From Candidatus Erginobacter occultus (GTDB lineage Bacteria; Auribacterota; Erginobacteria; Erginobacterales; Erginobacteraceae): a DNA stretch of 35,592 nucleotides. Position numbers and translations under genes: made by a program. The stretch is taken from contig JAVCCZ010000219.1 in the NCBI GenBank assembly GCA_030765265.1, forward strand, positions 1 to 35,592. The letters run 5' to 3'. Of this stretch, positions 4,952-35,592 are shown in pieces; within the stretch, counting starts at the first letter, position 1, and each line of letters starts with the position of its first letter. The notes below the pieces were generated by a model, which had not been told where the DNA came from, did not search any database, and saw only the letters and a program-made list of their open reading frames with translations.

Positions 4952-6088
4952 TCAGGCCAGGAGACCGCGGTAAACTTCCCAGGTCATCCGGGCGGTTTCG
5001 GCCCAGGAAAATCGGGCGGCATATTGCCGGCCGGTTTCCCGGCGTTCCCGGCGGCGGAGACAGTCTTCCCCGAGCAGGTTTTCCACCGCGTCCCTCCAGG
5101 CCTCGACGTCGAGAACGCCCGGCCGGACCACCGCGGGGGTGTCGAGAATTTCCGGCAGGGCCCCCCCCTCGGAAGAGACCACCGGCGTGCCGCAGGCCAG
5201 CGCTTCCAGGGGTGGAAGACCGAAACCTTCGTATAACGACGGGAAGAGCAGCGCCTCGGCTCCGCTGTAGAGGGCGGGGAGCAGATCCTCCGGCACGTAA
5301 GAGAGGAGGCGGATATCCCCGGCCCGGGGCGAGTTCTTAAACCGCTCCAGGATCGGCTCGGCCCGCCATCCGGTGGAGCCGGCGACCGCCAGCAGCCCGT
5401 CAAACTTTTCGCCTAACCTTTCCCAGACCTCGACGGCGAAGATATGATTCTTGCGCGGCTCCAGGGTGCCGACGGTCAGCAGGTAGGGACGGTCCAGGCC
5501 CAACTCCGCGCGCATAGACTTGACGGCGTCATCCCCAGTCGGCCGAAAACGCGGTTCCACACCCAGGTAGGTTACGTGGATCCGCGCCGGATCGACTCCC
5601 AGTTCTGTCGCTATCTCAGCGGCGCTAAAGCGCGAGATGGTGATGATGGCGTCGGAGCGGGCCGCCGAACGCGGCAGGAAACGGCGGAGCCGCCGCAGAT
5701 TGCCCGGCTCGGCGTACCGGGGGAAGCGCAGATACGACATATCGTGAATGGTAATCACGGATCGCCGGCCCCGGCGCAACGGCGGCGAGACGAAATTGGG
5801 GAAATGATAAATATCGGAATCGGTCCCGGCCAGTGCGGTGAAATCCGGCCAGGGTAAATAACGCCACACCCCTTCAACCAAACGGCCGGGCAGGAGGCGG
5901 AACGGTCGGAGATCGGCACCCGGAACCGCCGGAGGCGACCCTTTTCCTTGGAAATCAAAGTAAAACAGTCGTAACCGATCTCCGGAGGACGCGGCCAGCG
6001 GCGCCAGGTGTTGGGCCAGGTTCCGGGTATAACGTCCGACCCCGGCGGCCCGGCTGACCGCCGCCTGGATGTTGAGACAGACTTCCAC
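4952..6088 (-). CDS. GT4 family glycosyltransferase
   Basis: ORF is open to 6298 but homology-like sequence begins at GTG 6088 (VEVCLNIQAAVSRAAGVGRYTRNLAQHL). Contains LLTVGTLEPRKNH and PSLYEGFGLPPLEALACGTPVVSSEGGALPEI. The start is supported by the homologous remnant at 24635-24777. Confidence 0.9.
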   Translation of the reverse strand: MEVCLNIQAAVSRAAGVGRYTRNLAQHLAPLAASSGDRLRLFYFDFQGKGSPPAVPGADLRPFRLLPGRLVEGVWRYLPWPDFTALAGTDSDIYHFPNFVSPPLRRGRRSVITIHDMSYLRFPRYAEPGNLRRLRRFLPRSAARSDAIITISRFSAAEIATELGVDPARIHVTYLGVEPRFRPTGDDAVKSMRAELGLDRPYLLTVGTLEPRKNHIFAVEVWERLGEKFDGLLAVAGSTGWRAEPILERFKNSPRAGDIRLLSYVPEDLLPALYSGAEALLFPSLYEGFGLPPLEALACGTPVVSSEGGALPEILDTPAVVRPGVLDVEAWRDAVENLLGEDCLRRRERRETGRQYAARFSWAETARMTWEVYRGLLA

Positions 6089-6393
6089 GGTTTGAGTTCC
6101 TCCGGTATCGCGGCAATTATCCTGCCGGCAATAATCCCACGAATGACACAAAAGGGATAGAAAAAGTTCCCTGGTATCCCAGGGAGCGGCGCTATTTGCC
6201 AGGGAGCGCTCCGGCCGGAATCCGACAGGGCCGTCATCATTCTCTGTGACCGGCCAACCGTACCCGAAAACGTAATTGTTCGGCCCGGTTCTTGCCATAC
6301 GCCCCGGGTTGTGAGAAGATTACCCCGGTTGCCATCCCCGGGAACGCCCGGAACAGGGCCCCCCGACGGTATTCAAATCCTGATCGGTGACTT

Positions 6394-8508
6394 ATGCGTC
6401 ATACAGCCTTTTTCAGTTCAATTTCGGGAAAGATCTTAACTACCCCGCTAAACCGGGGGCGTTTCGGACTCCCCGTGCTCATCTTCTGCGGTATGCTGGC
6501 GGCGGCAGGCTGCCGCGATCCCGGGCAGACTGAGCGGGACCGGCACCGGCTGACCGTGGAGGAGCTGACCGGCGGACATACCCGGGTGGTCTGGACCCAG
6601 GATACCGAGGAACTCCGGGATGTCTTCGGCGGGGGTTCCCGGCTCCGCCTGATGGGCTACGACAGCCGCGACGGCCGGGGGGAGCGGATTATCCTCCCCG
6701 GTCCGGCCCCGATCCTCAAACCCCTGTTCACCCCGGACGGGGAGCAGGTTGTCTACTCCGTGATCGAGGAAGACGCGACCTACATCGTCAACTGGGACGG
6801 CGGCGGTCACCGCCGCCTGGCGGACGGGATGGCCGTGGCCACCTGGCGCGATCCCGCCGACGGCCGGGACTGGCTGTATATCGGCCGCGACGTGCGCGAT
6901 GAGCGGGGGTTTTGTTTTCCCCGGATCGTCCGCGCCCCGCTCGACCAGATCAAGGCCGAAGAGACCGTCTGGGACGGGCCTTTGATGGCGATGGACAATA
7001 TCCAGCTCTCCGCCGACGGCCGGCGGGCTTCCAGCTTATTCCCCTGGCCGAAGTCCGGGGTGGCTCATTTTCCCAACGGCGGGTTCGACCGGATCGGGCG
7101 CGGCTGCTGGACCGCGATGGCCCCGGATGATTCGGGTATTATGTGGACCCTGGACGGGGCACACCGCAACCTGCTGATGGCGGACACCCGGGGCGATGAC
7201 CGCTGGACGATCAACCTCAGCCAGGCCCCGGTGATCGGCGGACACGAGATTTATCACCCTCGCTGGAGCAATCATCCTTACCTGATGGTGCTTTCGGGCC
7301 CCTACACCATCCGGGCCGGGGGCAATAATATCCGCGGAGGAGGCCCCGAGGTGGAGATCCAGATCGGCCGGTTCAGCCGGGATCGCCGTTCCATCGAGGA
7401 ATGGGCTCAGGTCAGTAAAAATGACTACCTGAATGTCTACCCCGACCTCTGGGTTAAACCAGCCGCCCCGATCCCCCGTCCCTCCCCGGCCGGCGCCCGG
7501 GTCCGGAACGGTGAACCGGAAACGGCCTGGCCGGCGGTTACCGATCACCTGGCCTACCTGTGGCGAAACCGGGACGCGGCCAACCGGGTCGAAACCGGGG
7601 ACGGCGAGATTCGGGATTGCAACCCCGAACCGGCGGGCTCGGCCCGGTACGGTCGACACCTCGGTATGGACCTCCGGCGGGGTTACTTCGTCGATCGCGA
7701 CGCCGGCCCCGCCGTGGCGGAGGAGATGGGGGAGACGGGCGAGTTCACCTTCCAGGCCTGGCTGACTCCCGAGGGCGAGGGGGACCGGGCGGCGGCCATC
7801 TGGGGGGTGGGTGAGGGTGATACGGATGTCCGGGCCGGCCTGTCGATTGTCGACGGCCAGCTCTGCCTGCGCTGGCGGACGGAGTCGGCCAGGCTGAACG
7901 GCGTCGAGGAGGGCGGCGGACCAAGACACCTGGCGGTAACTTGCGCGGCGGGGAGGGTTTCAGTTTACCGTGACGGGGAACCGGTCGGTGAAGCGGACCT
8001 GCCCTCGTTTCACCCGGGTTCCTGGGCGGGCGGTCCGATCTATTTCGGGGGTACTCCGCTGGAGGGAACGAACTGGAGCGGGTTTATGGAAGGCGTCGCC
8101 TGGCATACCCGGGCACTCTCGCCGGGGGAGATCTCCCGGGAGGCCGCCGCCTACCGCGCGACGGCCGGCGGGCGGCCGGCGGCCGAAACGGTTACCGTCC
8201 GGGCGGAACTGACCGAGGCGTCCGCGATCCCCTCCCCGGCGGATATCGCGCCCTACCGGCGGGGACTGGTGGTCAACGAATACCGGGTCATCGAGGTGCT
8301 GAACGGGGACCTGGAGGCCGAGAAGATCCTGGCGGCCCACTGGGTGATTATGGACGGCCGGACCCTAAAGACGGCCCGGAGGGAACCCGGCCGGGAATAC
8401 ACGATGCGTCTCGAACCGTATGAAGGCCGGCCGGAACTGCAGGGCGAACGCCTCTCGATGGACACGGAGAATATCCTCCTGGCCACCTACTTCGATATCG
8501 ATTCGTGA
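6394..8508 (+). CDS. Putative lipoprotein: TolB/PD40-like propeller region, LamG/concanavalin A-like domain, and a C-terminal domain resembling that of the AlgJ-like protein at 10007-11701
   Basis: N-terminal hydrophobic segment with lipobox-like LAAAGC. Repeats of the form YTPDGEQVVYSV / QLSADGRRASS. Middle region GEFTFQAWLTPEGEGDRAAAIWGVG...VYRDGEPVGEADL is LamG-like. Confidence 0.75.
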   Translation: MRHTAFFSSISGKILTTPLNRGRFGLPVLIFCGMLAAAGCRDPGQTERDRHRLTVEELTGGHTRVVWTQDTEELRDVFGGGSRLRLMGYDSRDGRGERIILPGPAPILKPLFTPDGEQVVYSVIEEDATYIVNWDGGGHRRLADGMAVATWRDPADGRDWLYIGRDVRDERGFCFPRIVRAPLDQIKAEETVWDGPLMAMDNIQLSADGRRASSLFPWPKSGVAHFPNGGFDRIGRGCWTAMAPDDSGIMWTLDGAHRNLLMADTRGDDRWTINLSQAPVIGGHEIYHPRWSNHPYLMVLSGPYTIRAGGNNIRGGGPEVEIQIGRFSRDRRSIEEWAQVSKNDYLNVYPDLWVKPAAPIPRPSPAGARVRNGEPETAWPAVTDHLAYLWRNRDAANRVETGDGEIRDCNPEPAGSARYGRHLGMDLRRGYFVDRDAGPAVAEEMGETGEFTFQAWLTPEGEGDRAAAIWGVGEGDTDVRAGLSIVDGQLCLRWRTESARLNGVEEGGGPRHLAVTCAAGRVSVYRDGEPVGEADLPSFHPGSWAGGPIYFGGTPLEGTNWSGFMEGVAWHTRALSPGEISREAAAYRATAGGRPAAETVTVRAELTEASAIPSPADIAPYRRGLVVNEYRVIEVLNGDLEAEKILAAHWVIMDGRTLKTARREPGREYTMRLEPYEGRPELQGERLSMDTENILLATYFDIDS

Positions 8509-8547
8509 TTTTCATCACCGGCCGGACTGGATAACAGATAACCGGTT

Positions 8548-10005
8548 ATGGTCTTCAGTTCCAACCTCTTTATCTTCTATTTTATCCCCCTGGCGCTGCT
8601 GGGTTATTACCTGGCCCCGCGCCGCGGCAAGCACCTGGTGCTGACCGGGCTCAGTTACGCCTTTTACGGCTGGGCCAACCCGGCCTTCGGCATCCTGCTC
8701 GCCTTCTCCACGGTGGTGGACTACTTCTGCGGGCTGGTGATCGTCGGCCGCAACCCGTTCAACGGGCGGTACGACGCCGCTCCCCTGCCCCCCGACACGC
8801 CCCGCACCCGGGCCCAGAAGACCGCCGTCGCCGTATCCGTGATCACCAACCTCTCCTTGCTTGGATTCTTCAAGTACTTCAACTTCGCCGTCGAAAATTA
8901 CGACTCGCTGATCGGACTCCTCGGCATCGAGGGATTCCAGCTCGATCTCGCTCTCCGGGTCACCCTGCCCCTGGGCATAAGTTTCTATACCTTCCAGTCG
9001 ATGAGCTACACGATCGACGTCTACCGGGGACACGCCCGGGTCCTGCGCAACTTCATCGACTTCGCCTGTTATGTCTCGATGTTCCCCCAGCTGGTCGCCG
9101 GGCCGATCATCCGGTTCTCCGAGATCTCGGAACAGCTCCGCACCCGCTCCCACACCCTGACCAAGTTCGCCCGGGGCGCGGCCTTCATCTCCCTGGGACT
9201 GGCCAAGAAGATCCTGATCGCCAACCCCTGCGGCAAGATCGCCGATGTAGCCTTCGACGCCGGGGCGATCGGGGTGCTCGATTCCTGGTACGGCGTGGTC
9301 GCCTACGCCTTCCAGATCTACTTCGACTTCAGCGCCTACACGGATATGGCCATCGGCCTGGGACTGATGCTGGGCTTCGTCTTCCCCAAGAACTTCGACT
9401 CCCCCTACCTCGCGAAGTCGATCACGGAATTCTGGAAACGCTGGCATATCTCCCTCTCCTCCTGGCTGCGCGACTATCTCTACATCCCGCTCGGCGGCAA
9501 CCGCAAGGGGAAGCGGCGAACTTACGTCAACCTGGCGCTGGTTATGCTCCTCGGCGGCCTCTGGCACGGGGCGGCCTGGAACTTCGTCATCTGGGGCGGC
9601 TTCCACGGCCTCCTGCTCGGCCTCGAGCGGATGGGAGGGAAGCATTCCGCCTACCGCCGCCTGCCCGGTCCGGTTCGGGTGGCCCTGACCTTCTTCCTGA
9701 TCTGTATCTCCTGGGTCTTCTTCCGGGCCGCCGACCTGCCGGCGGCCCTGGCCTACCTGGGGGCGATGTTCGGCCTGGTCCCGGGCACGGCCACGGCCCC
9801 GCTGCTCGGCGGCCTGATCTACCAGCCCTATTACCTGGGGACATTCATCCTGGCCGGGATGATAACCTGGGGAGCCCCCCAGACCTGGGACTGGACCCGC
9901 CGGCTGCCGGCCTGGAAGATCGTCATCTGTCTCGCTCTCTTCCTGATCTCGATCCTGATTCTCGCCACCCAAGCCTATAACCCGTTCATCTACTTTATCT
10001 TCTGA
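8548..10005 (+). CDS. MBOAT family O-acyltransferase (AlgI-like)
   Basis: NLFIFYFIPLALLGYYLA, FDFSAYTDMAIGLGLMLGF, LGGLWHGAAWNFVIWGGFHG (MBOAT histidine region); multi-TM, 485 aa. Confidence 0.93.
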   Translation: MVFSSNLFIFYFIPLALLGYYLAPRRGKHLVLTGLSYAFYGWANPAFGILLAFSTVVDYFCGLVIVGRNPFNGRYDAAPLPPDTPRTRAQKTAVAVSVITNLSLLGFFKYFNFAVENYDSLIGLLGIEGFQLDLALRVTLPLGISFYTFQSMSYTIDVYRGHARVLRNFIDFACYVSMFPQLVAGPIIRFSEISEQLRTRSHTLTKFARGAAFISLGLAKKILIANPCGKIADVAFDAGAIGVLDSWYGVVAYAFQIYFDFSAYTDMAIGLGLMLGFVFPKNFDSPYLAKSITEFWKRWHISLSSWLRDYLYIPLGGNRKGKRRTYVNLALVMLLGGLWHGAAWNFVIWGGFHGLLLGLERMGGKHSAYRRLPGPVRVALTFFLICISWVFFRAADLPAALAYLGAMFGLVPGTATAPLLGGLIYQPYYLGTFILAGMITWGAPQTWDWTRRLPAWKIVICLALFLISILILATQAYNPFIYFIF

Positions 10006-10006
10006 T

Positions 10007-11701
10007 ATGAAAGTAACCCAGGAGCAACTGAGCCGGGAAGAACAAGCCTGGCGTGAGGTAGGTCATACGACCATCCGGCGGAAGTCGGCCCGGGTATTGT
10101 CCGGCTGCTTTCTGGCGGTGATTTTCGCGGTACCGCTCTACCAGTTGGCCGCCGAATACCTCGAGGCGCGGCGGACGGGACAAACCTGGCGGCCGCAGAT
10201 TCTGGAACTGGCCCGCCGGATACCGGACGTGCTCGCCCCGATCCGCGATGGAGGTTTACGGCCGGCAAACATCGTCCGGGCCAACCGCAACCTGCTCCGC
10301 GAAATCAACGATTTTGAAGACCGCCTGAACGACGCCTCGCTCCTCGGGCAGTATATCCGCCCGCGGGTGCAGGAATGGTTCAGCGGCTGGCCGGGGGTGG
10401 GAAATGAGCAGGCCTACGTGGGGCGCGACGGCTGGCTCTTCTATCGGCCCGGCCTGGACTATCTCACCGGCCCCGGCTTCCTTGACCCCCGTCAGCTCAG
10501 ACGGCGGGCCGGAGGCGGGGACGAGTGGCACGCTCCCCCCCAGCCGGATCCCCGGCCGGCCATCATCGATTTCAACGATCAACTGCGGGAACGCGGCATC
10601 GGACTGATTGTCGTTCCCGTACCCGTCAAGCCCTCGATCCACCCGGAAAAATTCTCGGCCCGCTATGAAGGGACCCGGCGCCAGGAGGAAATTCCGCTCC
10701 AAAACGCTTCCTACTCCAGGCTGATGGCCGACCTGGCGGCGGCCGGGGTGACCGTCTTCGACCCCTCGGAACTCCTGGCGGCCCGGGCGGATCGGCCCCG
10801 GTTCCTGGCCACCGACACCCACTGGCGCCCAGAAGCGATGGAGGCCGTGGCGGTCCGGCTGGCGGCGCGGATCGCCGACGTGCTCGGTGCCCCGGGACCC
10901 GGGGACGGCGGCCTCCGGCGCCGGCCGCTCGAACTGGCCGGACTCGGCGACATCGCCTTGATGCTGGATCTTCCGAAAGGGCAGACCCGGTTCCCGCCGG
11001 AATCGGTGACCATCCGGCAGGTGCTGACCGCCGACGGGCAGTTCTGGCGGGCGTCAAAAGAGGCCGAGGTTTTGGTCCTGGGCGACAGTTTCAGCAACAA
11101 TTACTCGCTCGAACCGATGGGCTGGGGCGAGTCAGCGGGGCTGGTGGAGCAGCTGAGCTACTTTCTCCACGCTCCGGTGGACCGGCTGGTCCGGAACGAC
11201 AGCGGCGCCTGGGCCACCCGGGCGATGCTGGCCCGGGAGCTGGCCCGAGGGCACGATCGCCTGGCGGGAAAACGGGTGGTGGTCTGGCAGTTCGCCGCCC
11301 GCGAGCTGGTCGTCGGCGACTGGCGGATCATACCGCTGCGCCCGGGAGAGCCGCCGCCGGCCCGGTTCGTGGTCCCCCAACCCGGCCGTCCCCTCACCGT
11401 CAACGGGACCGTCCGGGAGGCGGCGCCGGTTCCCCGCCCCGGCACGGTCCCCTACCGCGATCACGTGACCGCTGTCCACCTGGTCGACCTCCCCGAAAAC
11501 GGGGAGGCGGTGGTCTATATGTTCGGAATGGAAGACAACGAGTGGACCCGGGCGGCCCGCCTCCGGCCGGGCGAGGAGATCACGGTCCGGCTGGTCCCCT
11601 GGGCCGAGGTCGCCGACCGCTACGGCGGGATTAACCGCGGCGAGCTCAGCGACCTGGAACTCCAGCTCCAGGAACCCTGCTGGGGGGAATGGGTCGACTG
11701 A
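10007..11701 (+). CDS. AlgJ/AlgX-like SGNH O-acetyltransferase with an extra C-terminal domain
   Basis: VGRDGWLFYRPGLDYLTGPGF, VVPVPVKPSIHPEKF, TDTHWRPEA (D-x-H), LVLGDSFSNNY (GDS); starts 2 nt after the MBOAT stop. C-terminal extension from about residue 463 onward. Confidence 0.88.
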   Translation: MKVTQEQLSREEQAWREVGHTTIRRKSARVLSGCFLAVIFAVPLYQLAAEYLEARRTGQTWRPQILELARRIPDVLAPIRDGGLRPANIVRANRNLLREINDFEDRLNDASLLGQYIRPRVQEWFSGWPGVGNEQAYVGRDGWLFYRPGLDYLTGPGFLDPRQLRRRAGGGDEWHAPPQPDPRPAIIDFNDQLRERGIGLIVVPVPVKPSIHPEKFSARYEGTRRQEEIPLQNASYSRLMADLAAAGVTVFDPSELLAARADRPRFLATDTHWRPEAMEAVAVRLAARIADVLGAPGPGDGGLRRRPLELAGLGDIALMLDLPKGQTRFPPESVTIRQVLTADGQFWRASKEAEVLVLGDSFSNNYSLEPMGWGESAGLVEQLSYFLHAPVDRLVRNDSGAWATRAMLARELARGHDRLAGKRVVVWQFAARELVVGDWRIIPLRPGEPPPARFVVPQPGRPLTVNGTVREAAPVPRPGTVPYRDHVTAVHLVDLPENGEAVVYMFGMEDNEWTRAARLRPGEEITVRLVPWAEVADRYGGINRGELSDLELQLQEPCWGEWVD

Positions 11702-11772: not shown

Positions 11773-12513
11773 TCAGACCGGGACAACCGTCTCAAACAGC
11801 GGTTGGCGACTCAAGCCGGTTTTATGGAGAAGATACCTGGCAACGGTATGCAAAATACTGAACCCGTAGCGCACTCCCTTGCTGAAAGGCATCTGGGAAT
11901 TCTCGTCAAGGTACCGGGTGGCGTGCGGAACTTCGGCGATTCTCTGCTTGCGGATGGCGGCTTGGATAATAATGTCGGTGTCAAAATCAAATTTTTCGCT
12001 CAACAGCTCCAGCGGAACCTGCCTCAGGAACCGGGTGGAATAGGCCCGGTAACCGTTATGATAATCGGTCAGGTTGGTTTGAAAGACTAAATTCTCCAGA
12101 TGGGTGAGAAAGCGATTCGGGATATATTTCCAGAGGGGCATACCCTGACGGAGGACATCGCCTAAAACCATCCGGGTCCCGGTGACGACGTCATAACCCT
12201 CGTCGCGGATCTTGGCGATAAACAGGGGCACCATCGCGGGATCGTACTGGTTGTCACCGTGAACCATTACAGCGATGTCCGCGCCCCGATTGATCGCTTC
12301 CTGATACCCGGTCTTCTGAGCGCCGCCATATCCCCGGTTTTGCTTATGGCTGACCACGGTCAACCCCAGGGACCGGGCGAGATCCGCCGTCCCGTCCGTA
12401 CTGCCGTCATCGACCACGATGATTTCATCCCCGCAACCCGGCGGGATGGATTTAACGGCCTGGCCGAGAACCGGGGCGACATTGTAAGCGGGTATGATTA
12501 TAATAACTTTCAT
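11773..12513 (-). CDS. GT2 glycosyltransferase, DPM1-like (polyprenyl-phosphate sugar synthase type, no C-terminal TM)
   Basis: Start reassigned to ATG 12513 (MKVIIIIPAYNVAPVLGQAVKSIP...IIVVDDGSTDGTADLA...MVHGDNQYDP). The longer ORF to 12684 runs into the divergent promoter region. Confidence 0.88.
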   Translation of the reverse strand: MKVIIIIPAYNVAPVLGQAVKSIPPGCGDEIIVVDDGSTDGTADLARSLGLTVVSHKQNRGYGGAQKTGYQEAINRGADIAVMVHGDNQYDPAMVPLFIAKIRDEGYDVVTGTRMVLGDVLRQGMPLWKYIPNRFLTHLENLVFQTNLTDYHNGYRAYSTRFLRQVPLELLSEKFDFDTDIIIQAAIRKQRIAEVPHATRYLDENSQMPFSKGVRYGFSILHTVARYLLHKTGLSRQPLFETVVPV

Positions 12514-12688
12514 AATTTCCTTGCAACTCCGGAAAATTTTATATAAATGAAGCTGGTTGATAACGAAAACCGCCGCGAATCGAGCCGCGATGGTCTCTCC
12601 GCGCTCGGGCGGCGCCGGCCGGAGGGTCTTCCTCTTCCCCCGGCCAGATTTCACCCCGATAAGCAAAAACGAACAAAATAGCACTGCT

Positions 12689-14575
12689 ATGCGATTTAAT
12701 CACTCTTTTTTTTCGTATCTGGCGGCAGCCGGCCTGGCCGGCGGCCTTTCCCTCTGGGCCGCCAAAGCTATTTACCGCTCGACGGCGATGTCTTCCGACG
12801 AGAACAGTTACGTGTTTCAAGCCCACTGCTTCGCCGAGGGGCGGATCAGCCGCCCTTATCCCGAGCCCTTTGCCCGCGCCTTCGCCAGCTATATGATCAT
12901 CCTCGATCGGGAACACGGCTGGCTGTCCCGTTATCCGCCCGGACATCCCCTTTGGCTGGCTCCCGGCATCTGGCTGGGGGAACCGCGCCTGATGGTAATC
13001 CTGGCGGCCGGACTGTCGGTCATCCTGCTGGGCAGCGCCGCGAAACAGATCGCAATCTCTCCCTGGGCGGTCATAGTGCCGCTGCTGGTCTCGCCTTACT
13101 TCATAAGTATGTACGGCACCCTGCTCAGTCACACCAGCGGCTTTCTCTATGTCTCCGCCCTGCTCGCCGCCTATCTGGCCTGGAAACGAACCCGGCGGCC
13201 ACTTTACGCCGCCCTGGCGGGACTGGCCTGGTCGCTGTTATTTCTCAACCGTACCTTTGCCGCCGGGCTGGTCGCCCTGCCGCTGGGGTTAGACGCGCTG
13301 GTTACCGGGGCCCGGCGTTGGAACCGGCGGGCGCTGGCGGGACTGTTCCTGTTGGCCGTCGCTTCAACCGCCGGCGTTTTCGCCTACTTCGAATACAACC
13401 GGCGGGCGGTCGGGGACCCCCTCACCCCGACCTATCTGTATTACGAATCCAGCGAGAAACTGGGGTTCGGCCCCCGTCACACCCAGGGAAAAACCATCTA
13501 CCATACCCCCGAAAAGGGGATGCTGGAGATGCGGGACAACCTGCTTGACCTGGACCTGTGGCTGGGGGGATTCCGGGGATCGCTGGCGGTCGCGCTCCTG
13601 CTGGCGCTCCTGGCCTGGAACCCCAACTACACCCCCTTGCTGCTGGGTTCGGCGTTTTCCGTCTGGCTGGGCTATGTCTTCTTCTGGTTCCGGGGCATCC
13701 CCGAGGTGGGCGGACCGGTTTATTACTTTGAATCCCTGCCGATGATCTTTTTGGCCGCCGGGAGCGGTTTGGGGAAACTGCACGAACGGTTGATCCGCCG
13801 ATTTCCCCGCCGGCGCCTGGTCTGGCCGCTGCTGGCCGTCCTGGCGGGGCTGAACACCGCCCTGGTCCTGCAGGGACAGGTCCGGAAGCTGAGCGCTCCC
13901 CAGGCACAACGGCGCGCGCTGCTGGATACACTGGCCGACGCTCCCCCGAAGTCCCTGGTATTTCTGGAGAACATTGACTTTCCCCGAGAAGGGGAAATAG
14001 TCTACAATCCCCGGGGGCTCGAGAGCGACCCCCTGCTGGCCCGCGGCGGCGGGGGGAGAATGGCCAACGCCTGGCTCTGGCACCAGGCCTTCCGGGACCG
14101 CTCCGCCTTCCTTCTCGACGGACGGACCCCCGGCCGGCTGATCCCCCTGAACCTGGAAGAGGAACCGGTCGAGATCTTCTGGGACGCGTCCCGGACTCAC
14201 CGCCAAGTCGGGGCCAACGAAACCGACGGCGAGGGGCGCAGTTTCCGAGTGGCCTACCCCGGAAGTGAAACGGGGTTTATGGTTTTCGGAAGTTACCTGG
14301 CCCTGATTCCGGAAAGCCGTTACCGCGCTTCATTCGAAGTCCGGACGGACGAACGGGGAGCGGCGATCCGCCTGGATGTGACCATCGATCACGGCCGAAA
14401 GATAATTGCCGAACAGGACCTTGAACTGGCGCCGGGAGAAGACCGGTTATGTATCCTGGAATTCGTGACGCCGCCGAGGATGGTCTGGGGCGAACCGAGG
14501 GTCAAGTATCTCGGGGGCGGGAAAGTGATGATCGGTCGGCTGGGTTTGGAAAAACTGGCGCCGGTTGCTCCTTGA
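12689..14575 (+). CDS. Large GT-C/GT39-like integral membrane protein with C-terminal soluble region
   Basis: Start likely ATG 12689 (MRFNHSFFSYLAAAGLAGG). SSDENSYVFQA (acidic first-loop motif), LSRYPPGHPLWLAPGIW; many hydrophobic segments followed by a beta-rich soluble C-terminus. Confidence 0.75.
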   Translation: MRFNHSFFSYLAAAGLAGGLSLWAAKAIYRSTAMSSDENSYVFQAHCFAEGRISRPYPEPFARAFASYMIILDREHGWLSRYPPGHPLWLAPGIWLGEPRLMVILAAGLSVILLGSAAKQIAISPWAVIVPLLVSPYFISMYGTLLSHTSGFLYVSALLAAYLAWKRTRRPLYAALAGLAWSLLFLNRTFAAGLVALPLGLDALVTGARRWNRRALAGLFLLAVASTAGVFAYFEYNRRAVGDPLTPTYLYYESSEKLGFGPRHTQGKTIYHTPEKGMLEMRDNLLDLDLWLGGFRGSLAVALLLALLAWNPNYTPLLLGSAFSVWLGYVFFWFRGIPEVGGPVYYFESLPMIFLAAGSGLGKLHERLIRRFPRRRLVWPLLAVLAGLNTALVLQGQVRKLSAPQAQRRALLDTLADAPPKSLVFLENIDFPREGEIVYNPRGLESDPLLARGGGGRMANAWLWHQAFRDRSAFLLDGRTPGRLIPLNLEEEPVEIFWDASRTHRQVGANETDGEGRSFRVAYPGSETGFMVFGSYLALIPESRYRASFEVRTDERGAAIRLDVTIDHGRKIIAEQDLELAPGEDRLCILEFVTPPRMVWGEPRVKYLGGGKVMIGRLGLEKLAPVAP

Positions 14576-14607: not shown

Positions 14608-15639
14608 ATGAGAAGATTTAAGGGAAGACTGGCTCCGGTTCTATTTCTGCTCCCGGCCTTGCTGGCGGGCGGAACCCCCTCCCCGGCTGCGGAGCGGCTG
14701 CTGGAGCGGAGCGGCGAACTGGCGCGGGCAGCGGAGGAAGAGGGCCGGACCGTGGTAGAAGGCCGCGACGGTTGGCTCTTTCTCGTCTCCGAACTCCGGC
14801 ATCTGGCCGCCGGGCCGTTCTGGGGCGAGGCGGCCCGGACCGCCAGCCGGGCCAAGCGGGCCGAGGCCCGCGATCCCCTGCCCGCGATACTTGACTTCCA
14901 CCGGGAGCTGAAGGCCAAGGGAATCGAACTGATCCTGGTCCCGGTTCCGGCCAAGGCCGCGGTCTATCCCCATTACCTGCCCGGCGATCCCGGAGCCGAA
15001 AGCGGAGTCCGACCCGATCCCCATCACCGGGAGTTCTATTCCCTGCTCCGCGCCGAGGGGGTCAAGGTCCTGGACCTGACCGACCGGTTCCGGGAAGGGC
15101 CGGATCCGGCCAGGGGCCCATACTACTGCCGCCAGGACTCCCACTGGTCGGGGACGGGCTGCGTCCGGGCGGCCGAGATTCTGGCCGATAAAGTCCGGCC
15201 GCTGCTTCCCCGAACCACCGAGAGAAGTTATCCGGCGGCCTGGAAAGAAATCGAGATCGACGGCGACCTGCGCCGGATGCTGGACGATCCCGGGGTGCCG
15301 CCGGAGATTCTGGCGGTCCGCGCGGTCGAGGGGGAGACTCTCGACCCGGACAGTCCCCTCCTCGTTTTAGGGGACAGCCATACCCTGGTCTTTCACGCCG
15401 GGGGGGATATGCACACCCGGGGGGCCGGGCTGGCCGATCAGCTCGCCCGGGAACTGGGCCGGCCGGTCGAGCTGGTCGGCGTCCGCGGATCCGGCGCCAC
15501 GCCGGCTCGGCTCAACCTGTTCCGGAAGGCCCGGGGGGACCCCGAATACTGGAACCGCAAACGGGCGGTGGTCTGGATATTCTCCGCCCGCGAATTCACC
15601 GAGAGCGACGGCTGGCGCCTGGTCCCGCTCGGCCCTTAA
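14608..15639 (+). CDS. Second AlgJ/AlgX-like SGNH protein, short form lacking the C-terminal extension
   Basis: VEGRDGWLFLVSELRHLAAGPFWG, LVPVPAKAAVYPHYL, RQDSHWSGTGC (D-x-H), LVLGDSHTLVFH (GDS), VVWIFSAREFTESDGWRLVPL. Collinear with the protein at 10007-11701 but ends at the equivalent of DWRIIPL. Confidence 0.87.
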   Translation: MRRFKGRLAPVLFLLPALLAGGTPSPAAERLLERSGELARAAEEEGRTVVEGRDGWLFLVSELRHLAAGPFWGEAARTASRAKRAEARDPLPAILDFHRELKAKGIELILVPVPAKAAVYPHYLPGDPGAESGVRPDPHHREFYSLLRAEGVKVLDLTDRFREGPDPARGPYYCRQDSHWSGTGCVRAAEILADKVRPLLPRTTERSYPAAWKEIEIDGDLRRMLDDPGVPPEILAVRAVEGETLDPDSPLLVLGDSHTLVFHAGGDMHTRGAGLADQLARELGRPVELVGVRGSGATPARLNLFRKARGDPEYWNRKRAVVWIFSAREFTESDGWRLVPLGP

Positions 15640-18530: not shown

Positions 18531-18558
18531 TTGTCGCTCGGCCGAAGGTGACTATAAT
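18531..18558 (+). promoter_or_regulatory. Putative sigma70-type promoter TTGTCG-N16-TATAAT
   Basis: ttgtcg 18531-18536, 16-nt spacer, tataat 18553-18558, upstream of the SGNH hydrolase and in a divergent intergenic region. Confidence 0.5.
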
Positions 18559-18658
18559 GTTTCGGCAACGGGAAACCAGGCGGAGCAGGCGGGTGCCGGG
18601 GGCGGGTTCAGTGCCGCCCGGCCGACCGAACCCGCGGGAGACGACGACGAGATACCAG

Positions 18659-20023
18659 GTGAAGAACTTGAGAACAAACCGGAAGCGGAAAAGCCGCGGA
18701 CTGCGATTCCTCCAACTCTCCCTTCTCCCGATGGTCTCCCTGCTCGTCTGCCTGATCGTCCTGGAAGGCGCGCTGGGCGCCTACCGGGCGCTGCGGCGGG
18801 GGCGGAACCCTTACGGAGCGGGGGTTCTGGCCGACTACCGTTCGCTCCTGGAAAATGTGACCGCCTCAGCGGACCGGGCCGACGCCCAGCTGCCTTCCAT
18901 AGCTCCCCACCCCTACCTGGGGTACGTGGCCAACTACGACGCCCGGAAGTCGCACAAGGGGATGCCCGTCAACCGCTTCGGATTTTTCAGCGAAGTCGAG
19001 GCGCTCTACCGGCCAGATCCCGAGGAAGAATTCGCGGTCGTCGTTCTCGGCGGCTCCGTGGCGGCGCAGCTCTGCATCGTGGGAGCCGACGCCCTCCGCC
19101 GGGGCCTGGAGAGCCTGCCGATCACCGGAGGCCGGCGAGTGGTCATCAACAGCTTGTGCCAGGGCGGCTACAAGCAGCCCCATCAGCTCCTGATCCTATC
19201 CTATTTCCTCTCCCTCGGTCTCCACGCGGATCTGCTGATCAACATTGACGGGGTCAACGAAATGGCCTTCTTCCAGCTCAACGCCCGGCAGAACAAGATC
19301 GATCCTTCCTTTCCCTGGAACTGGCTGACCCTGACCGACGCGGACCGGCCCGACCGGGAAGCGATGCGCGCCCGGCTGGCCATCATCCGGCAGCGGGAAA
19401 GCCGGGCCCGCCTGGCTTCCGTCCTGCTCCGCACCGGGCTTTACCGCAGCGTCCTTGTCCGTTATCTGCGGGAACGCCTCGACCGGATGTCGATTCACCG
19501 GGAGGGGCGGGCCGAACACCGGCTCGAGGAGCGGCTACGGGACACCAGCCGGCAGACCCCTTCCTACGGTCGGACCGGGCCGGTCTACTGGTCCGGCGAA
19601 GACCTGGACGAAGCCCTGCTGGAATCGGCCCGCCTCTGGCGGCGGGCTTCCATCGCTTTAAGTGATCTGGCCCGGGAGCAGGGCATCCCCTATGTTCACG
19701 GACTCCAGCCCAACCAGTACTTTTTCCGGGAAACCCCGCCTCCGGAAAGACCCGACAGCGGGGTTTACAACACCGAATCCCGATTTTACCGGGCGCTGAC
19801 CCGCGGTTACGCCTGTTTTATCAGCCAGTCCGAAATATTGCGGGCCAACGGCGTGCCGTTTGTCGATTATAACGAATCCTTCTTCGGTCACGTCCCGGAA
19901 ACCATCTACGAGGACGATTTTGCCCATCTCAACCAGCGGGGCAACGAGATGCTGGCCGACGCCGTTGTCGAATCCGTGGCGCGCCTGGTCTCCCCCCCGA
20001 CAGGTCCCGAGCAGGGCGAATAA
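18659..20023 (+). CDS. Membrane-anchored SGNH/GDSL-like hydrolase or acyltransferase
   Basis: ORF listed from 18548; GTG 18659 (VKNLRTNRKRKSRGLRFLQLSLLPMVSLLVCLIVLEGALG) gives a basic N-terminus followed by a TM. SGNH-like blocks: VVVLGGSVAAQ, INIDGVNEMAF, DDFAHLNQRGNEMLAD. Confidence 0.75.
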   Translation: MKNLRTNRKRKSRGLRFLQLSLLPMVSLLVCLIVLEGALGAYRALRRGRNPYGAGVLADYRSLLENVTASADRADAQLPSIAPHPYLGYVANYDARKSHKGMPVNRFGFFSEVEALYRPDPEEEFAVVVLGGSVAAQLCIVGADALRRGLESLPITGGRRVVINSLCQGGYKQPHQLLILSYFLSLGLHADLLINIDGVNEMAFFQLNARQNKIDPSFPWNWLTLTDADRPDREAMRARLAIIRQRESRARLASVLLRTGLYRSVLVRYLRERLDRMSIHREGRAEHRLEERLRDTSRQTPSYGRTGPVYWSGEDLDEALLESARLWRRASIALSDLAREQGIPYVHGLQPNQYFFRETPPPERPDSGVYNTESRFYRALTRGYACFISQSEILRANGVPFVDYNESFFGHVPETIYEDDFAHLNQRGNEMLADAVVESVARLVSPPTGPEQGE

Positions 20024-28399: not shown

Positions 28400-29578
28400 T
28401 CATCCCGGGTTCGGGAGTGATTCGTAGACCCGCCGCAGACGCCGTTTGAACTCGCCGAAATTATAAGTAGTGCCGATCAGTTCCTTCCCCCGGCAGGCCA
28501 GACGTTCACGGCCCACAGGGTCGGATATCAGACGGCAGACACCAACGCTGAAGGCTTCCGGGTCGGGACGGACGAAGCAGGCGGACTCCTCGCAGAGGAT
28601 CTGGCGGTTGGCCCGGTTATCCGTCGCCAGGATGCAGCGGCCGGCTTTGAGATAGTCCAGCAGCTTGAGCGGGGTGTTGGTTCCGGCCAGCCGGGGTGAG
28701 AGGAGGAGGTCGGACGCGGCCAGGTAATCCGGGAGACGGTCCGGGGGCACCTTCCCCGGGAAACTCACCGCCCCTTCCGCCCCGGCGGCGCGCAGCTGAC
28801 GCTTCCGGGCTTCAATCTCTTCCGGCGTGCCGCCGATGATGATGAACCGGGCCCGGGGCTCCCGGCGGACGATCCGGGGAATGGCGTCGAAGAGCAGTTC
28901 AATCCCCTGGTAAACGGCGAACGAACCGACATAGGTGATCAGGATCTCGCCGGCCCGCCGGCGCAGGGATTTCTTCAGCTCCCGGACCCGTTTCGGGTCC
29001 GGCTCGACCAGCGACGAGGGGATATCGAAGATATGATAAATCGGCTTCTCCGGGACGATGGACCGCGCCTGCTCAACCAGGCTCTCCCCCGTCCCGATTA
29101 CGGCATCGGCGTGTCGAATCGCGTGGGCCTCGGCCCGGCTGTAGAGCGTCATAATCAGGTTGCGCATCCCGCCCCCGCGATAGGAGTCGGGATCGGAGTG
29201 TTTCTCGAAGATCAGCCTGGCCCGGCTGAACCGGGCCAGGGAGACCGCGAAGATCCCGGCGTCCTCCACCGCGTGAATGACATCGTAGGGCCGCTCCCGG
29301 ATCAGTTTCCGGGCCCGGATCCAGAGCTTGGCGGCAAAGACGAACTTCCAGATTGAGGGCCCGATCGGGATATTTTCCCGTCCGCAGACATTGGCCACCC
29401 GGATGATCCGGAGACCGGGCAGGGGGTAATCCTCGCCGAAGGGCAGGGTCAGCAGGTCGATCTCGCAGCCCAGCTCCGAGAGCGCCAGCAAATTGAAGCC
29501 CACGCGAATCGGCGACCCGCGCCACTGGAAGAACGGCTGAGGGGAGATGAAGAGAACTCTGGAAGGAGGAGCGGTCAT
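28400..29578 (-). CDS. GT4 family glycosyltransferase
   Basis: RVLFISPQPFFQWRGSPIRVGFNLLALSELGCEIDLLT, ILITYVGSFAVYQGIELLFDAIP, LDYLKAGRCILATDNRANRQIL. Confidence 0.88.
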   Translation of the reverse strand: MTAPPSRVLFISPQPFFQWRGSPIRVGFNLLALSELGCEIDLLTLPFGEDYPLPGLRIIRVANVCGRENIPIGPSIWKFVFAAKLWIRARKLIRERPYDVIHAVEDAGIFAVSLARFSRARLIFEKHSDPDSYRGGGMRNLIMTLYSRAEAHAIRHADAVIGTGESLVEQARSIVPEKPIYHIFDIPSSLVEPDPKRVRELKKSLRRRAGEILITYVGSFAVYQGIELLFDAIPRIVRREPRARFIIIGGTPEEIEARKRQLRAAGAEGAVSFPGKVPPDRLPDYLAASDLLLSPRLAGTNTPLKLLDYLKAGRCILATDNRANRQILCEESACFVRPDPEAFSVGVCRLISDPVGRERLACRGKELIGTTYNFGEFKRRLRRVYESLPNPG

Positions 29579-30357
29579 CTCGGAGCCGGGCTCCGGCGGT
29601 TATGCCGAAAGAGACGGCCGCCCGCCCGCCAGGGCGGGTTCCGCCGGCCGATCGGCCGACGGGAAGCGGCCGGGTCGACGAGCAGGCGGCGGAGCGAGGA
29701 GAGGGGACGGCGGCGATCGAAATCTCCCTCGATCCGGACCCCGTAACGCCCCGCTTCCGACTCCTCGCCCGCCAGCGGCAGCGGGTCCGACCCGGCCAGG
29801 ATCACCCGGTCCGGGTCGCGCATCGGCGCCGGCCTCGGCCAACCGAGGGGGCGGAGGGAGGTGTCGCCAAGGAGCAGGAGACCGGGGCCGAAGTCCTCAA
29901 GGAGGCGTCCGACTACCCCGGCGCGCTTGAACATCCACTTCCCCGGCGCCCAGGCCAGGACCGGCACCCCCCCCCGGTCGAGCACGGCTTGCACGGCCGC
30001 CGACGCCTCCAGCCCATCTTCGATCTCTCCCGTCAGCGCCAGGGCCAAAATCTCAACCCGTTCGGCCGTCACCAGCTGGCGGCCGGCCAGGATCCAGGCG
30101 CTCTCCCCCTCGTCCCAGGTCACCCGGACCGATCCGGGCTCGGCCGCTCCCTCGACTTTGAATGACCCGGGAAGCCCGTGGGTCCCGGACAGGAGTCGAT
30201 CGAAGAAATGAATCCCGCGGCCTTCGGCCAGAAACAGGACCGGGACCGCGGCCGGAGACGGGGCGGCGCGGAGCAGCCGCCGGGCAGCGCCCCGGATCAG
30301 GGCCGCCGCGTCGTGAACCGGGTAGATATGGATATGAGTGTCGGCGGCAATCTCCAA
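29575..30357 (-). CDS. Protein of unknown function with N-terminal PHP/amidohydrolase-like DTHIH motif
   Basis: MEIAADTHIHIYPVHDAAALIRG; ATGA overlap (29575-29578) with the downstream GT4 start supports a real coupled gene. Confidence 0.65.
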   Translation of the reverse strand: MEIAADTHIHIYPVHDAAALIRGAARRLLRAAPSPAAVPVLFLAEGRGIHFFDRLLSGTHGLPGSFKVEGAAEPGSVRVTWDEGESAWILAGRQLVTAERVEILALALTGEIEDGLEASAAVQAVLDRGGVPVLAWAPGKWMFKRAGVVGRLLEDFGPGLLLLGDTSLRPLGWPRPAPMRDPDRVILAGSDPLPLAGEESEAGRYGVRIEGDFDRRRPLSSLRRLLVDPAASRRPIGRRNPPWRAGGRLFRHNRRSPAPR

Positions 30358-30423
30358 GCTTCACCTCTTTCTCCGGCCGGATTTCCTTGTCAGGACGGCG
30401 CCGGATAGTTTACTGTTAGCACA

Positions 30424-31212
30424 ATGCAGGCCAGCGAGTCCACCACAATCACCCCGCCGCCGTCCGCCGAAACTCCGTTCCGGGAGACGGCGGATATCGA
30501 AACCTCTTCCGACGGTTACGCCCGGCGCTTCGCCGGACCGACCGGCCGGTGGATGCTGGCCGTTCAGGAAGAGCGGACCCGAGCGCTGCTCCGTCCCTAC
30601 GGCCCGGGAAGGTCCATCCTCGATGTCGGCGGCGGCCACGGGCAGCTGGCGATCCCGTTCTGCCGGGAGGGCCACCGGGTGACCGTGCTCGGCAGCGCTC
30701 CGGAGTGCTCGACCCGGATCCGGGAAGCCGTCGAGCACGGGACCTGCCGGTTCTGCGTCGGCAACGTAATCTCGCTGCCGTTTCCCGACCGGTCGTTCGA
30801 CCTGGCGATCTCTTTTCGCCTGCTGACCCACTGCGGCCGCTGGCCGGCCCTGGTCGCCGAACTCTGCCGGGTGGCCCGCCGGGCCGTGATCGTCGATTAC
30901 CCAACCAGCCAGAGCGTCAACCGTCTGGCCCCGAGACTCTTCGCGGCCAAGAAGAAACTGGAAGGCGATACCCGGACCTGGAAGCTCTTTACCCACGCCG
31001 AAGTCCGCGAGGTCTTTGCCGACCAAGGTTTCCGGGAAAGTCAGAGGTACAAGCAATTCTTCCTGCCGATGGTCGCGCACCGGATGCTGAAATGCCGTCC
31101 GCTCTCCGCCGGTCTGGAAGCCCTGGCCCGGGCGGCCGGGCTCACCCGTCTGGCCGGTTCCCCGGTGATCGGCTGTTACGAGCCGGTTGGGAGCGGAAGA
31201 GATACACGGTGA
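30424..31212 (+). CDS. Class I SAM-dependent methyltransferase
   Basis: ILDVGGGHGQLAIPFCREGHRVTVLGSA, NVISLPFPDRSFDLAISFRLLTHCGRW. Confidence 0.88.
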   Translation: MQASESTTITPPPSAETPFRETADIETSSDGYARRFAGPTGRWMLAVQEERTRALLRPYGPGRSILDVGGGHGQLAIPFCREGHRVTVLGSAPECSTRIREAVEHGTCRFCVGNVISLPFPDRSFDLAISFRLLTHCGRWPALVAELCRVARRAVIVDYPTSQSVNRLAPRLFAAKKKLEGDTRTWKLFTHAEVREVFADQGFRESQRYKQFFLPMVAHRMLKCRPLSAGLEALARAAGLTRLAGSPVIGCYEPVGSGRDTR

Positions 31213-33232
31213 AATTACCGTCGCGGGCGGCGGGGTCGGCATAGCGGGGCAGGCGATCGTTCCTTCTCTCCCAGAGGGGCGAGTGAAATACCATCCTGTC
31301 CGTTAAAAGCCAACCGGCCCCCAAACCGGGCGGCTGGTCCCGGTCGCGCAGCCAGTACACCCTTCCCGCGGCCCGGGCGGCGGGAGCGGCCAATTTTTCG
31401 AAGACCGGCTCCAGGCTGTCCGAACCGTAGTAAACCGGCATAACCTTCAGGCCGTAAATCAAGTCAAGCGGCGTCGGTATCTTGTCGACGAACTCGCCTT
31501 CCACGAATACTATTTCGGCACCGGCGAGCTTCCCGGAGAGTTCTTCCATAAATTCGGCCGCCCCCCGGTACTCGCGGTGAAAGAAGAGGGGGCGGCTGTT
31601 GAGGATGGAAGCTCCCAGCAGCAGGAGGAAAACAACCCGGGCGATCCAACGGCCTCCCCTCCCCCTTCGGAAAGCTACTATCAAGGGGTACATCGAGAAG
31701 GCAATCAGCCCGGGGATCACCGCTTCGGCCAATCGGCGGGACGCCCACATATAATTATAGTGGACCATCTTGCGGGATATGAACACCGCGGCCGGGACGG
31801 CGATGATCAGGAAGAAGAGCCAGCCCGCCGGGGACCGTTCCCGGCCGATGAAGAGGAGGATCCCCACTACAGCGGCCGCCAGCAGCCAGGGACCCAGCAA
31901 CCAGCCGATCTCCACCAGGTTGTTGCTATCCGGGGTCCGGTCCCCGATAAGTGGCCGGAGAAAATAAGCGTAGCCAAATAGTCCGGCCGCCGCCGCGGCC
32001 AGCAGCCGACGGCCGGAAGAACCGCCGAAGGCCCGGGATATCCCTTCGCGACGGCGGAAGGGAAGCAGCCGCAAGCCGACGGCCAGGAAGATCCCGGCCC
32101 CCGCCAGGACCAACCCCGGCTTCGAGGCGGCCCCGGCAAAGCGGAACTGGGCCGCGCTCTTGGTAAAGTAGCGCCAGTCCCCGAAGAGCTGGGGGAGAAA
32201 GGAGATCAGGGTAAAGAGGATCAGAGGGATGATGAGATAGAGATCGTCCTTCCTGACTCTCTTCCACCACCGGCAATAAAAGAAGATCACCACCGGCGGC
32301 CAGATCAGGAGTGAGGTGATCCGGCAGAGCATAAACAGGCCCCAGACCGCGGCGGCGGTTATCGCCCAGAAAGGCTTGCCCTGCCGCAAATAGTTAAAGG
32401 CCGCCGCCGCTCCGGCAAAAAGGAGAAACTGGCTGAGCATCTCGGCGGTGGGATAACGGGCCTGCCAGATCTGGGCCACGTTGAAGACCAGGAGCAATCC
32501 GGCCGCCAGGGCGGCCCGGGCTCCCCACAACTCTCTCAACGCCAGATAGAAGGCCGCCAACGCGGCCAGGCCGGCCAGGGGGGTCAGGCAGAACAGGCCG
32601 CCCAGGCCCGCCCAGGAGTAAAATACGGCCATCCAGACGGGAAAGAGGTGATAGAATTCCGGGATCAGACGACCGGTCGCCGGCAAGGAGTAGCGAAACC
32701 CGGGGTACTTCTCCGGGTAACCGGCGGAGTGTCGCCAGGCGAGGCGGAGGACCTCTCCCGGCTCCAGGTCGGCAGCCGTGGGATCGACAGGAAAGATGGT
32801 TCCTTCCCGCGCCAGATGCCCGGCGGTATTGACGTAGACCCCGGGATCTAAGCCCCCGAAGATATAGGGGACCGGCCGGAAGAAAAGCGCCGCGCCGAGG
32901 CCGAGCAGGAGGAGCGGCGCCAGCAGGCACCCGGCCCGGGACGGAGAGAAAACCGGCCGGGCCCCGGAACGGATCAGGACCGGGACAAACGCCAGGGAAA
33001 AGAGCAGGGCCAGGAGGGCCAGCCGGGGCACCGAGAACGCTCCCAGGTAAGCCAGGATTAGGCCTGAGATTGAAGAGAAGGCAAAAGAGATGAGTCCGGC
33101 ATAGAAGGACATCTCCCCGGGGCCCCGAAACTCGGCCCGTTTCCCGCGGCCGGCGGCCACCGTCAGCAACGCCCCGGGGAGAAAGAGAATCAACACCGCC
33201 TGGACCACAATCAGGAATCGGGAGATAATCAT
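31142..33232 (-). CDS. Large GT-C/GT39-like integral membrane protein
   Basis: 696 aa multi-TM; GGLDPGVYVNTAGHLAREGTIFPVDP loop and LIPEFYHLFPVWMAVFYSWAG typical of PMT-like membrane glycosyltransferases. Confidence 0.78.
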   Translation of the reverse strand: MIISRFLIVVQAVLILFLPGALLTVAAGRGKRAEFRGPGEMSFYAGLISFAFSSISGLILAYLGAFSVPRLALLALLFSLAFVPVLIRSGARPVFSPSRAGCLLAPLLLLGLGAALFFRPVPYIFGGLDPGVYVNTAGHLAREGTIFPVDPTAADLEPGEVLRLAWRHSAGYPEKYPGFRYSLPATGRLIPEFYHLFPVWMAVFYSWAGLGGLFCLTPLAGLAALAAFYLALRELWGARAALAAGLLLVFNVAQIWQARYPTAEMLSQFLLFAGAAAAFNYLRQGKPFWAITAAAVWGLFMLCRITSLLIWPPVVIFFYCRWWKRVRKDDLYLIIPLILFTLISFLPQLFGDWRYFTKSAAQFRFAGAASKPGLVLAGAGIFLAVGLRLLPFRRREGISRAFGGSSGRRLLAAAAAGLFGYAYFLRPLIGDRTPDSNNLVEIGWLLGPWLLAAAVVGILLFIGRERSPAGWLFFLIIAVPAAVFISRKMVHYNYMWASRRLAEAVIPGLIAFSMYPLIVAFRRGRGGRWIARVVFLLLLGASILNSRPLFFHREYRGAAEFMEELSGKLAGAEIVFVEGEFVDKIPTPLDLIYGLKVMPVYYGSDSLEPVFEKLAAPAARAAGRVYWLRDRDQPPGLGAGWLLTDRMVFHSPLWERRNDRLPRYADPAARDGNFTVYLFRSQPARNSRSPGNRPDG

Positions 33233-34441: not shown

Positions 34442-35592
34442 TCAGCGCGATTCCCTCCGGGGGACGGTTTGCCCGCCTTCCCAAAGCCCATCGGAATACC
34501 TCCCCAGGAATTCATCCAACCAGGATAAGCGTTCCAGCGCTTCGCGACGCAGTCCGGCCCAGGCCTCTTCCCGGGTGATGCCCCGGGCGTAGCGGTCTCC
34601 CCAGACGGAGGAATCCCATTCGGCATATCCGGAAAGTCGCCGGTTCATCCCATCGATCCTCGCCGTGACGGAAGCCTCGCTCAACGGCCCCGGACGCAGC
34701 TGACGCCACCGCGCCGCCAGGGCGTTTTGATAGTCGGGATGATCTCGCCAGAGGCGGTCGGTTAACGCATTCGAAAGCCAGGGAGAACTCTGCCTCCCGC
34801 GGAAGGTCCCGTCATAATCCCAGGGAATGAAATAGAAACGGGAATCGGCCCCAACGCCGCGGGCTAAATACATATTGGTGCTGATCCCGTCACGGTTGTC
34901 GGTGTAATTGACCAGCAACTGCCAATCGATCGCGGAGTCGAGATTCACTATCCGCTCGATCCGATCGCCGAATTCTTGCGCCGAAGCTCCGCGGAGAAAG
35001 TCCATCAGCTCCTCATAGGGTTCGCAATGCAAACCATAAAATTGCGGCGGATATTTGACCGAATACGCAACGGAGCATTCTTCCCCTAATTGGAGAAACT
35101 TATAGAGCAGGGCCGGCTCAGTCTCTTCGGGGTCGTAGCGGTCCCAGCCGAGCAGGTGCCGGTCGACCCGGGTTCCCAGTTCGTAAAGACCCCGGTAGCG
35201 GCCGTTGACGAAGACCTCCGCCCAGTCGATGTCCGGGGCCGGGCGCGGTTCACCCCCGACTTCCCCCATCGCCTTGAAGAGATCATAAGAGAGTTTGTTG
35301 CGCAAAAACGAGATGTCGCTGTAACCGCCGCCCAGATAGAAATGATGGGTATTTGAATCGTTCAATATCCGGTGAGGCTCTTCACAGCGCACCGAAAAGG
35401 GTATCTTCCGCAACGTCCAGTCGTGCTCATCAGTGCGATTGACCTGCCAGAAATTCGTGTTCCCTCGAAACTTGACCCCCGCCCGCTCTCCCTGGAACGC
35501 GCGATATTTCACCGGGGAGAAGACGTCCCGGGGGTAGTGCTCGAACCGGAGATCAACCCTCCCGGTCTTCCGGAGCGGCTCGTTGACGTAGA
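34442..35592 (-). CDS. CotH kinase family protein; 5' end truncated by the right window edge
   Basis: Frame remains open from 35512 to the edge (YVNEPLRKTGRVDLRFEHYPRDVFSPVKYRAFQGERAGVKFRGNTNFWQ), so 35512 is not the true start. VKFRGNTNFWQVNR...KIPFSV, VFVNGRYRGLYELGTRVDR, FYFIPWDYDGTFRG. Confidence 0.85.
   Translation of the reverse strand, partial: YVNEPLRKTGRVDLRFEHYPRDVFSPVKYRAFQGERAGVKFRGNTNFWQVNRTDEHDWTLRKIPFSVRCEEPHRILNDSNTHHFYLGGGYSDISFLRNKLSYDLFKAMGEVGGEPRPAPDIDWAEVFVNGRYRGLYELGTRVDRHLLGWDRYDPEETEPALLYKFLQLGEECSVAYSVKYPPQFYGLHCEPYEELMDFLRGASAQEFGDRIERIVNLDSAIDWQLLVNYTDNRDGISTNMYLARGVGADSRFYFIPWDYDGTFRGRQSSPWLSNALTDRLWRDHPDYQNALAARWRQLRPGPLSEASVTARIDGMNRRLSGYAEWDSSVWGDRYARGITREEAWAGLRREALERLSWLDEFLGRYSDGLWEGGQTVPRRESR

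Follow-up and report, generated by a model that had tools for sequence, protein, structure and literature searches.

A small C-terminal domain shared by a LamG lipoprotein and an AlgJ-like protein encoded on either side of an MBOAT O-acyltransferase in Candidatus Erginobacter occultus

Systems that combine an MBOAT O-acyltransferase with SGNH-family proteins acylate alginate, cellulose, peptidoglycan, and secondary wall polymers. The described systems closest to the one considered here are the AlgI-AlgJ-AlgX-AlgF alginate O-acetylation machinery of Pseudomonas and the PatA-PatB peptidoglycan O-acetyltransferase. The former comprises an MBOAT, two SGNH/ALGX proteins with D[TS]HW and GDS motifs, and an extra periplasmic non-catalytic protein, AlgF, which is a non-enzymatic mediator of contacts between AlgJ and AlgX (PMC10641220). 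The latter comprises an MBOAT that ends in the acyl-tyrosine motif FXYXXF and a separate SGNH protein (PMC12148441). Here, we describe a 35,592-nucleotide stretch of DNA from Candidatus Erginobacter occultus (contig JAVCCZ010000219.1; hereafter, the window) in which genes for a predicted LamG-containing lipoprotein and an AlgJ-like SGNH protein flank an MBOAT gene, all three on one strand, and in which the two flanking proteins share a C-terminal domain (CTD).

The locus resembles the alginate system in its MBOAT and two SGNH/ALGX proteins, but its extra protein is the LamG lipoprotein with a CTD rather than AlgF, its AlgJ-like protein has a CTD, a part not described for P. aeruginosa AlgJ, and its neighbors are glycosyltransferases with no alginate operon. 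AlgF offers a functional precedent for the contact-mediating role proposed below for the CTD (PMC10641220), although it consists of two beta-sandwich domains whereas the CTD is predicted to be a single OB-like domain; Pfam scans of the window proteins and of 21 CTD members returned no AlgF match. PatA-PatB differs in having two components, without CTD proteins and without a second SGNH protein. A literature search for a LamG-MBOAT or propeller-MBOAT system returned no paper, and we regard the system as an MBOAT-SGNH variant with an undescribed domain.

A preliminary description of the window had proposed that the lipoprotein and the AlgJ-like protein end in a common module. As single sequences, the two tails are 26% identical (BLASTP E = 1e-5 in one comparison), and a whole-genome search with the lipoprotein tail returned the AlgJ tail as the sole other match, albeit a weak one (E = 0.065). 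We treat these similarities as a lead and not as proof. Relatives were collected from a Desulfonatronum metagenome-assembled genome (MAG) and from further genomes, and profiles of the two tail types were compared. With 10 lipoprotein-type and seven AlgJ-type tails, the comparison scored 49.7 over 80 columns (P = 1.9e-8), while 300 column shuffles reached at most 20.2 (mean 11.4, sd 2.4) and a reversed profile scored 9.2. P was still <1e-7 once the window and its nearest relatives were removed, and no match emerged from sliding windows over either protein outside the CTD (P >= 0.016). When the profiles were enlarged to 33 and 22 sequences, the profile-profile comparison that the preliminary description had suggested yielded P = 1e-12. 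Both tails lie at the positions proposed there. Genome scans were reciprocal, in that each CTD-type profile also retrieved the tail of the other protein.

Five AlgJ-like proteins (L090, L105-L108), here termed bridge proteins, match both CTD types over their full length (P = 3e-20 and 8.5e-22), and the homology thus reaches both C-termini. It does not stop at TxRLxP, where the preliminary description had ended its series of shared motifs. From that series, EAxxxPxP, PYR, AR, PGxE, and TxRLxP fall in register in the order proposed; NG is a chance agreement, kept in the close relatives of neither protein. Apart from this one motif, a chance or compositional resemblance could appeal to the identity of just 26% between two single sequences. 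It is rejected by the shuffle control, by the P-value of the larger profiles together with the bridge sequences, and by the reciprocal genome matches, and its probability is negligible. Judged from these sequence comparisons, the tails are almost certainly homologous, and would represent copies of one small, undescribed domain of ~105 residues. In an unrooted tree of 60 such domains (119 columns), lipoprotein-type domains form one supported group and AlgJ-type domains another, both spanning phyla; the five bridge sequences branch off next to the AlgJ-type group. This division into two supported cross-phylum groups rules out a recent duplication within the genome of the window.

The order CTD lipoprotein, MBOAT, AlgJ with CTD, AlgX-like protein is found in the window, in genome G004 (across two contigs), and in the Desulfonatronum MAG, where a second lipoprotein copy lies nearby. 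The LamG-MBOAT-AlgJ synteny that the preliminary description had expected to recur does so. In loci of several other phylum-level groups, a CTD protein gene directly precedes the same MBOAT subfamily. Because these loci had been found via the CTD, a separate search was started from the MBOAT. Among 85 genomes of one phylum, 30 encode the MBOAT subfamily and 30 the CTD; 29 encode both and 54 neither, the exceptions being G709 (CTD only) and G743 (a partial MBOAT only). Fisher's test on this co-occurrence gives P = 2e-20, a figure not to be taken literally since related genomes are not independent. Where CTD and MBOAT genes are linked in this phylum, they share a strand; no CTD lies near the more distant MBOATs (42-45% identity) that these genomes also encode. 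No CTD relatives were found in viral contigs. Genome G308 is the sole genome with an AlgJ CTD and without a CTD lipoprotein, yet it may still have a CTD upstream of its MBOAT: two SGNH-like proteins encoded there (L040, 4509-6125 and 6062-7942, minus strand) have a CTD-like stretch at their N-termini, one recognized at E = 8e-4 and the other by eye.

The preliminary description had also put forward the LamG lipoprotein as an extra component of the O-acylation machinery. Its standing as a recurrent operon member is borne out, and a CTD lipoprotein is very probably a component of the system; the constant part, however, is the CTD and not LamG, as the CTD also occurs upstream of MBOAT genes without LamG. 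Upstream CTD proteins combine a propeller with LamG, a propeller without a LamG match (L083, L085, L086, and L087), or one or two LamG domains, and one has a CTD with a membrane anchor only (L027, 8507-9286). Those of the L095-L101 type carry PepSY-like repeats, the CTD, and a GDSL-like region that resembles TIGR02171. LamG was therefore rejected as the defining part. In L095, L096, L099, L100, and L110, the upstream protein is ~565-575 aa long, with the CTD between the PepSY-like repeats and the C-terminal GDSL-like region; that of L095 matches part of the NCBIfam model TIGR02171, a Fibrobacter lipoprotein family.

Fusions place the CTD and SGNH domains in single chains. In L028, a 1231-aa open reading frame (ORF) directly after the MBOAT encodes an SGNH domain of the AlgJ-like kind together with a propeller-like region, LamG, and the CTD. 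In L094, a chain cut short by the contig end combines LamG, CTD, and SGNH. The AlgJ-like parts in L028, L085, L087, and L088 have no CTD of their own; there, the lipoprotein-type part bears one. In L026, the two SGNH proteins appear to be naturally fused, as one ORF (5536-8952, minus strand) encodes AlgJ, its CTD, and an AlgX-like SGNH domain.

The catalytic motifs are retained. Every full-length MBOAT compared ends in an FXYXXF-type hexapeptide, which is FIYFIF in the window and in most relatives, and it is the tyrosine of this motif that becomes acetylated in PatA (PMC12148441). In the window, both SGNH proteins retain PxK-type, D[TS]HW, and GDS motifs (as defined in PMC4148444). Together, these features indicate that the catalytic part is a standard MBOAT-SGNH system, by analogy with AlgIJX and PatAB. 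MBOATs paired with a bridge-type AlgJ CTD (L090, L105, L106, and L107) end in FLYFQF or FLYYQF and those with an upstream CTD protein in FIYFIF or FIYFVF; from these sequences, the acyl-tyrosine peptide seems to vary with the CTD type.

The lipobox cysteine of the window lipoprotein was assigned by inspection and is invariant in the four closest homologs. The residue after Cys40 is arginine. By the rule for E. coli, this would favor placement in the outer membrane, and the lipoprotein might then reach outwards from an inner-membrane acylation complex.

Sequence searches found no known Pfam, NCBIfam, or PDB family for the CTD. Neither tail of the window proteins is covered by any Pfam model, no Pfam or NCBIfam model for the domain was found, 21 CTD members scanned at E <= 1 gave no relevant Pfam match (including NTR/TIMP), and the CTD profile matched no chain among solved structures at E <= 10. 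The AlphaFold2 model of the lipoprotein CTD retrieved 310 Foldseek matches, none at E <= 0.001. The best neighbors are mostly of OB type, namely agrin NtA (related to N-TIMP-1), complement C3, RPA, SSB, and PriB, and the top match has a probability of 0.99, E = 0.04, 13% identity, and a TM-score of 0.46. Agrin NtA, TIMP, and the complement C345C domain, which are NTR-type OB folds, are the top structural neighbors of this model, but they are animal proteins and the CTD has no Pfam match to them. The CTD is probably a small beta-rich, OB-fold-like domain; because no Foldseek match passes E = 0.001 and TM-scores are <0.5, we use 'OB/NTR-like' only as a working label for a predicted fold. The most constant positions are a proline, the PY pair, and a glycine, and no catalytic residue is conserved.

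The CTD stays constant while its partner domains change, it occurs on both partners of the MBOAT, and it is found in fusions that join them, which is most simply explained by an assembly module. We moderately favor an interpretation in which the CTD is an adaptor or docking module of an MBOAT-SGNH O-acyltransferase. The system would comprise four proteins: the CTD lipoprotein, the MBOAT, the AlgJ-like SGNH protein, and the second, AlgX-like SGNH protein. The MBOAT would load an acyl group onto the tyrosine of its own C-terminal FIYFIF, the SGNH domain of the AlgJ-like protein would take the group over, and one of the SGNH proteins would place it on a polymer, presumably a polysaccharide. The CTDs would form a non-catalytic assembly module, in which those of AlgJ and the lipoprotein, either through mutual pairing or through docking on a common partner, join the catalytic pair to a polymer-sensing or anchoring protein. 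The preliminary description had listed docking, carbohydrate binding, and acyl handover as possible functions; the data do not separate these, and docking is favored. Direct acyl handover by the CTD is unlikely, given its lack of conserved catalytic residues.

Several observations weigh against an assembly role. CTD distances of lipoprotein and AlgJ correlate (rho = 0.65), but no better than those of AlgJ and the MBOAT (0.65); this correlation was accordingly rejected as evidence of contact, as it shows joint inheritance. The Foldseek matches of the lipoprotein CTD are not significant, and the model of the AlgJ CTD, built from a 2-sequence alignment, is of low confidence (pLDDT 46) and unusable for fold comparison. 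Some CTD proteins have no MBOAT in their vicinity; most of these are additional copies in genomes that also encode the system, and G709 has a CTD without any MBOAT of the subfamily. The AlgJ-like proteins of L085, L087, and L088 without a CTD indicate that two copies of the domain are not essential.

Alternatively, the CTD could be a carbohydrate-binding module comparable to the one at the C-terminus of AlgX, keeping the polymer close to both proteins. It follows an SGNH domain, which is also where AlgX has its carbohydrate-binding module (PMC4148444, PMC9734138), it is often joined to LamG, which has a lectin-like fold, and its P, PY, and W positions, which are invariant or nearly so, could form a ligand site. 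However, no sequence match to AlgX or to any solved carbohydrate-binding module was obtained even at E = 10, and the whole AlgJ-like protein matches solved AlgX in its SGNH part only. Moreover, the lipoprotein CTD model resembles OB/NTR folds, and restriction to one MBOAT subfamily together with presence on both partners would be less expected of such a module, which we consider an unlikely identity for the CTD. It is also conceivable that the lipoprotein is an envelope protein in its own right, with no more than an old, generic domain in common with AlgJ, and that their neighborhood reflects co-regulation in a polysaccharide cluster. Orphan CTD proteins far from any MBOAT would fit this, as would the two CTD groups in the tree, which imply an old duplication. 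This is difficult to reconcile with the near-identical sets of genomes encoding the CTD and the MBOAT subfamily among the 85 genomes, with direct adjacency across phylum-level groups, and with two fusions to SGNH domains, and we regard it as quite improbable. An assembly module remains our preferred interpretation of the CTD.

Features of the window that bear on the system are compiled in Table 1. The AlgX-like gene directly follows AlgJ in G004 and L003, and the two SGNH genes are likewise adjacent in the Desulfonatronum MAG; in the window, two inserted genes separate them. One encodes a family-2 glycosyltransferase on the opposite strand (11773-12684, minus strand) and the other a multi-pass membrane protein (12557-14575, plus strand), the likely start of which is the ATG at 12689, whereupon the overlap between the two disappears. 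The membrane protein shares a tail of ~95 aa (FGxYLxLxPxxRYRASFExRT...GGGKVMIGRxxLExLxP) with a protein of L006 (10155-12875) that is otherwise mostly different, and this tail is another possible shared module in polysaccharide clusters. At the edge of the cluster lies a gene for a CotH kinase family protein (34442-35512, minus strand; PF08757, E = 5e-37), and three ORFs within it (18548-20023, 29575-30357, and 30361-31242; 260-491 aa) have no Pfam match at E <= 0.01.

Table 1. Positions of the O-acylation genes and their parts in the window.
Feature	Position	Strand	Remarks
Predicted lipoprotein, 704 aa	6394..8508	+	Lipobox (LAAAG-Cys40), weak TolB/PD40 beta-propeller half, LamG, CTD
Lipoprotein N-terminal region, residues 50-358	6541..7467	+	Propeller-like, weak similarity only (TolB model E = 0.014; PD40 in distant relative)
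LamG / Laminin_G_3, lipoprotein residues 447-581	7732..8136	+	Pfam PF13385, E = 5e-14
CTD, lipoprotein type, residues 597-704	8182..8505	+	AlphaFold2 model on three sequences: five strands, pLDDT 84, pTM 0.78
MBOAT O-acyltransferase, 485 aa	8548..10005	+	PF03062, E = 2.3e-34; NCBIfam DltB model, E = 4e-45, below that model's cut-off
MBOAT C-terminal hexapeptide FIYFIF	9985..10002	+	Matches FXYXXF acyl-tyrosine motif of PatA
AlgJ-like protein, 564 aa	10007..11701	+	N-terminal membrane anchor, SGNH/ALGX catalytic domain (LIVVPVPVK, TDTHW, GDS motifs), CTD
SGNH/ALGX domain of AlgJ-like protein, residues 138-430	10418..11296	+	PF16822, E = 1.2e-27
CTD, AlgJ type, residues 461-564	11387..11698	+	Profile comparison
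Second AlgX-like SGNH protein of the same system	14608..15639	+	Without CTD; PF16822, E = 2.4e-28

More tentatively, and with doubt slightly outweighing confidence, the OB/NTR-like CTD might act as the assembly code of a widespread MBOAT-SGNH class. The copies on AlgJ and on the upstream envelope protein would contact one another or share a binding face on the MBOAT, and the choice of the polymer or envelope site to be acylated would fall to interchangeable N-terminal parts (propeller, LamG, PepSY, and GDSL). There is no settled account of how MBOAT-SGNH systems direct the acyl loader in the membrane to the right polymer. The CTD, present on the SGNH partner as well as on an envelope protein encoded upstream, and nearly restricted to settings with one MBOAT subfamily, provides a handle for deletion, swap, and bait experiments. 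Its recurrence beside the MBOAT in several phyla points to an unrecognized part of a polysaccharide-decorating machine, and the domain can serve as a marker for annotating MBOAT-SGNH systems in little-studied phyla.

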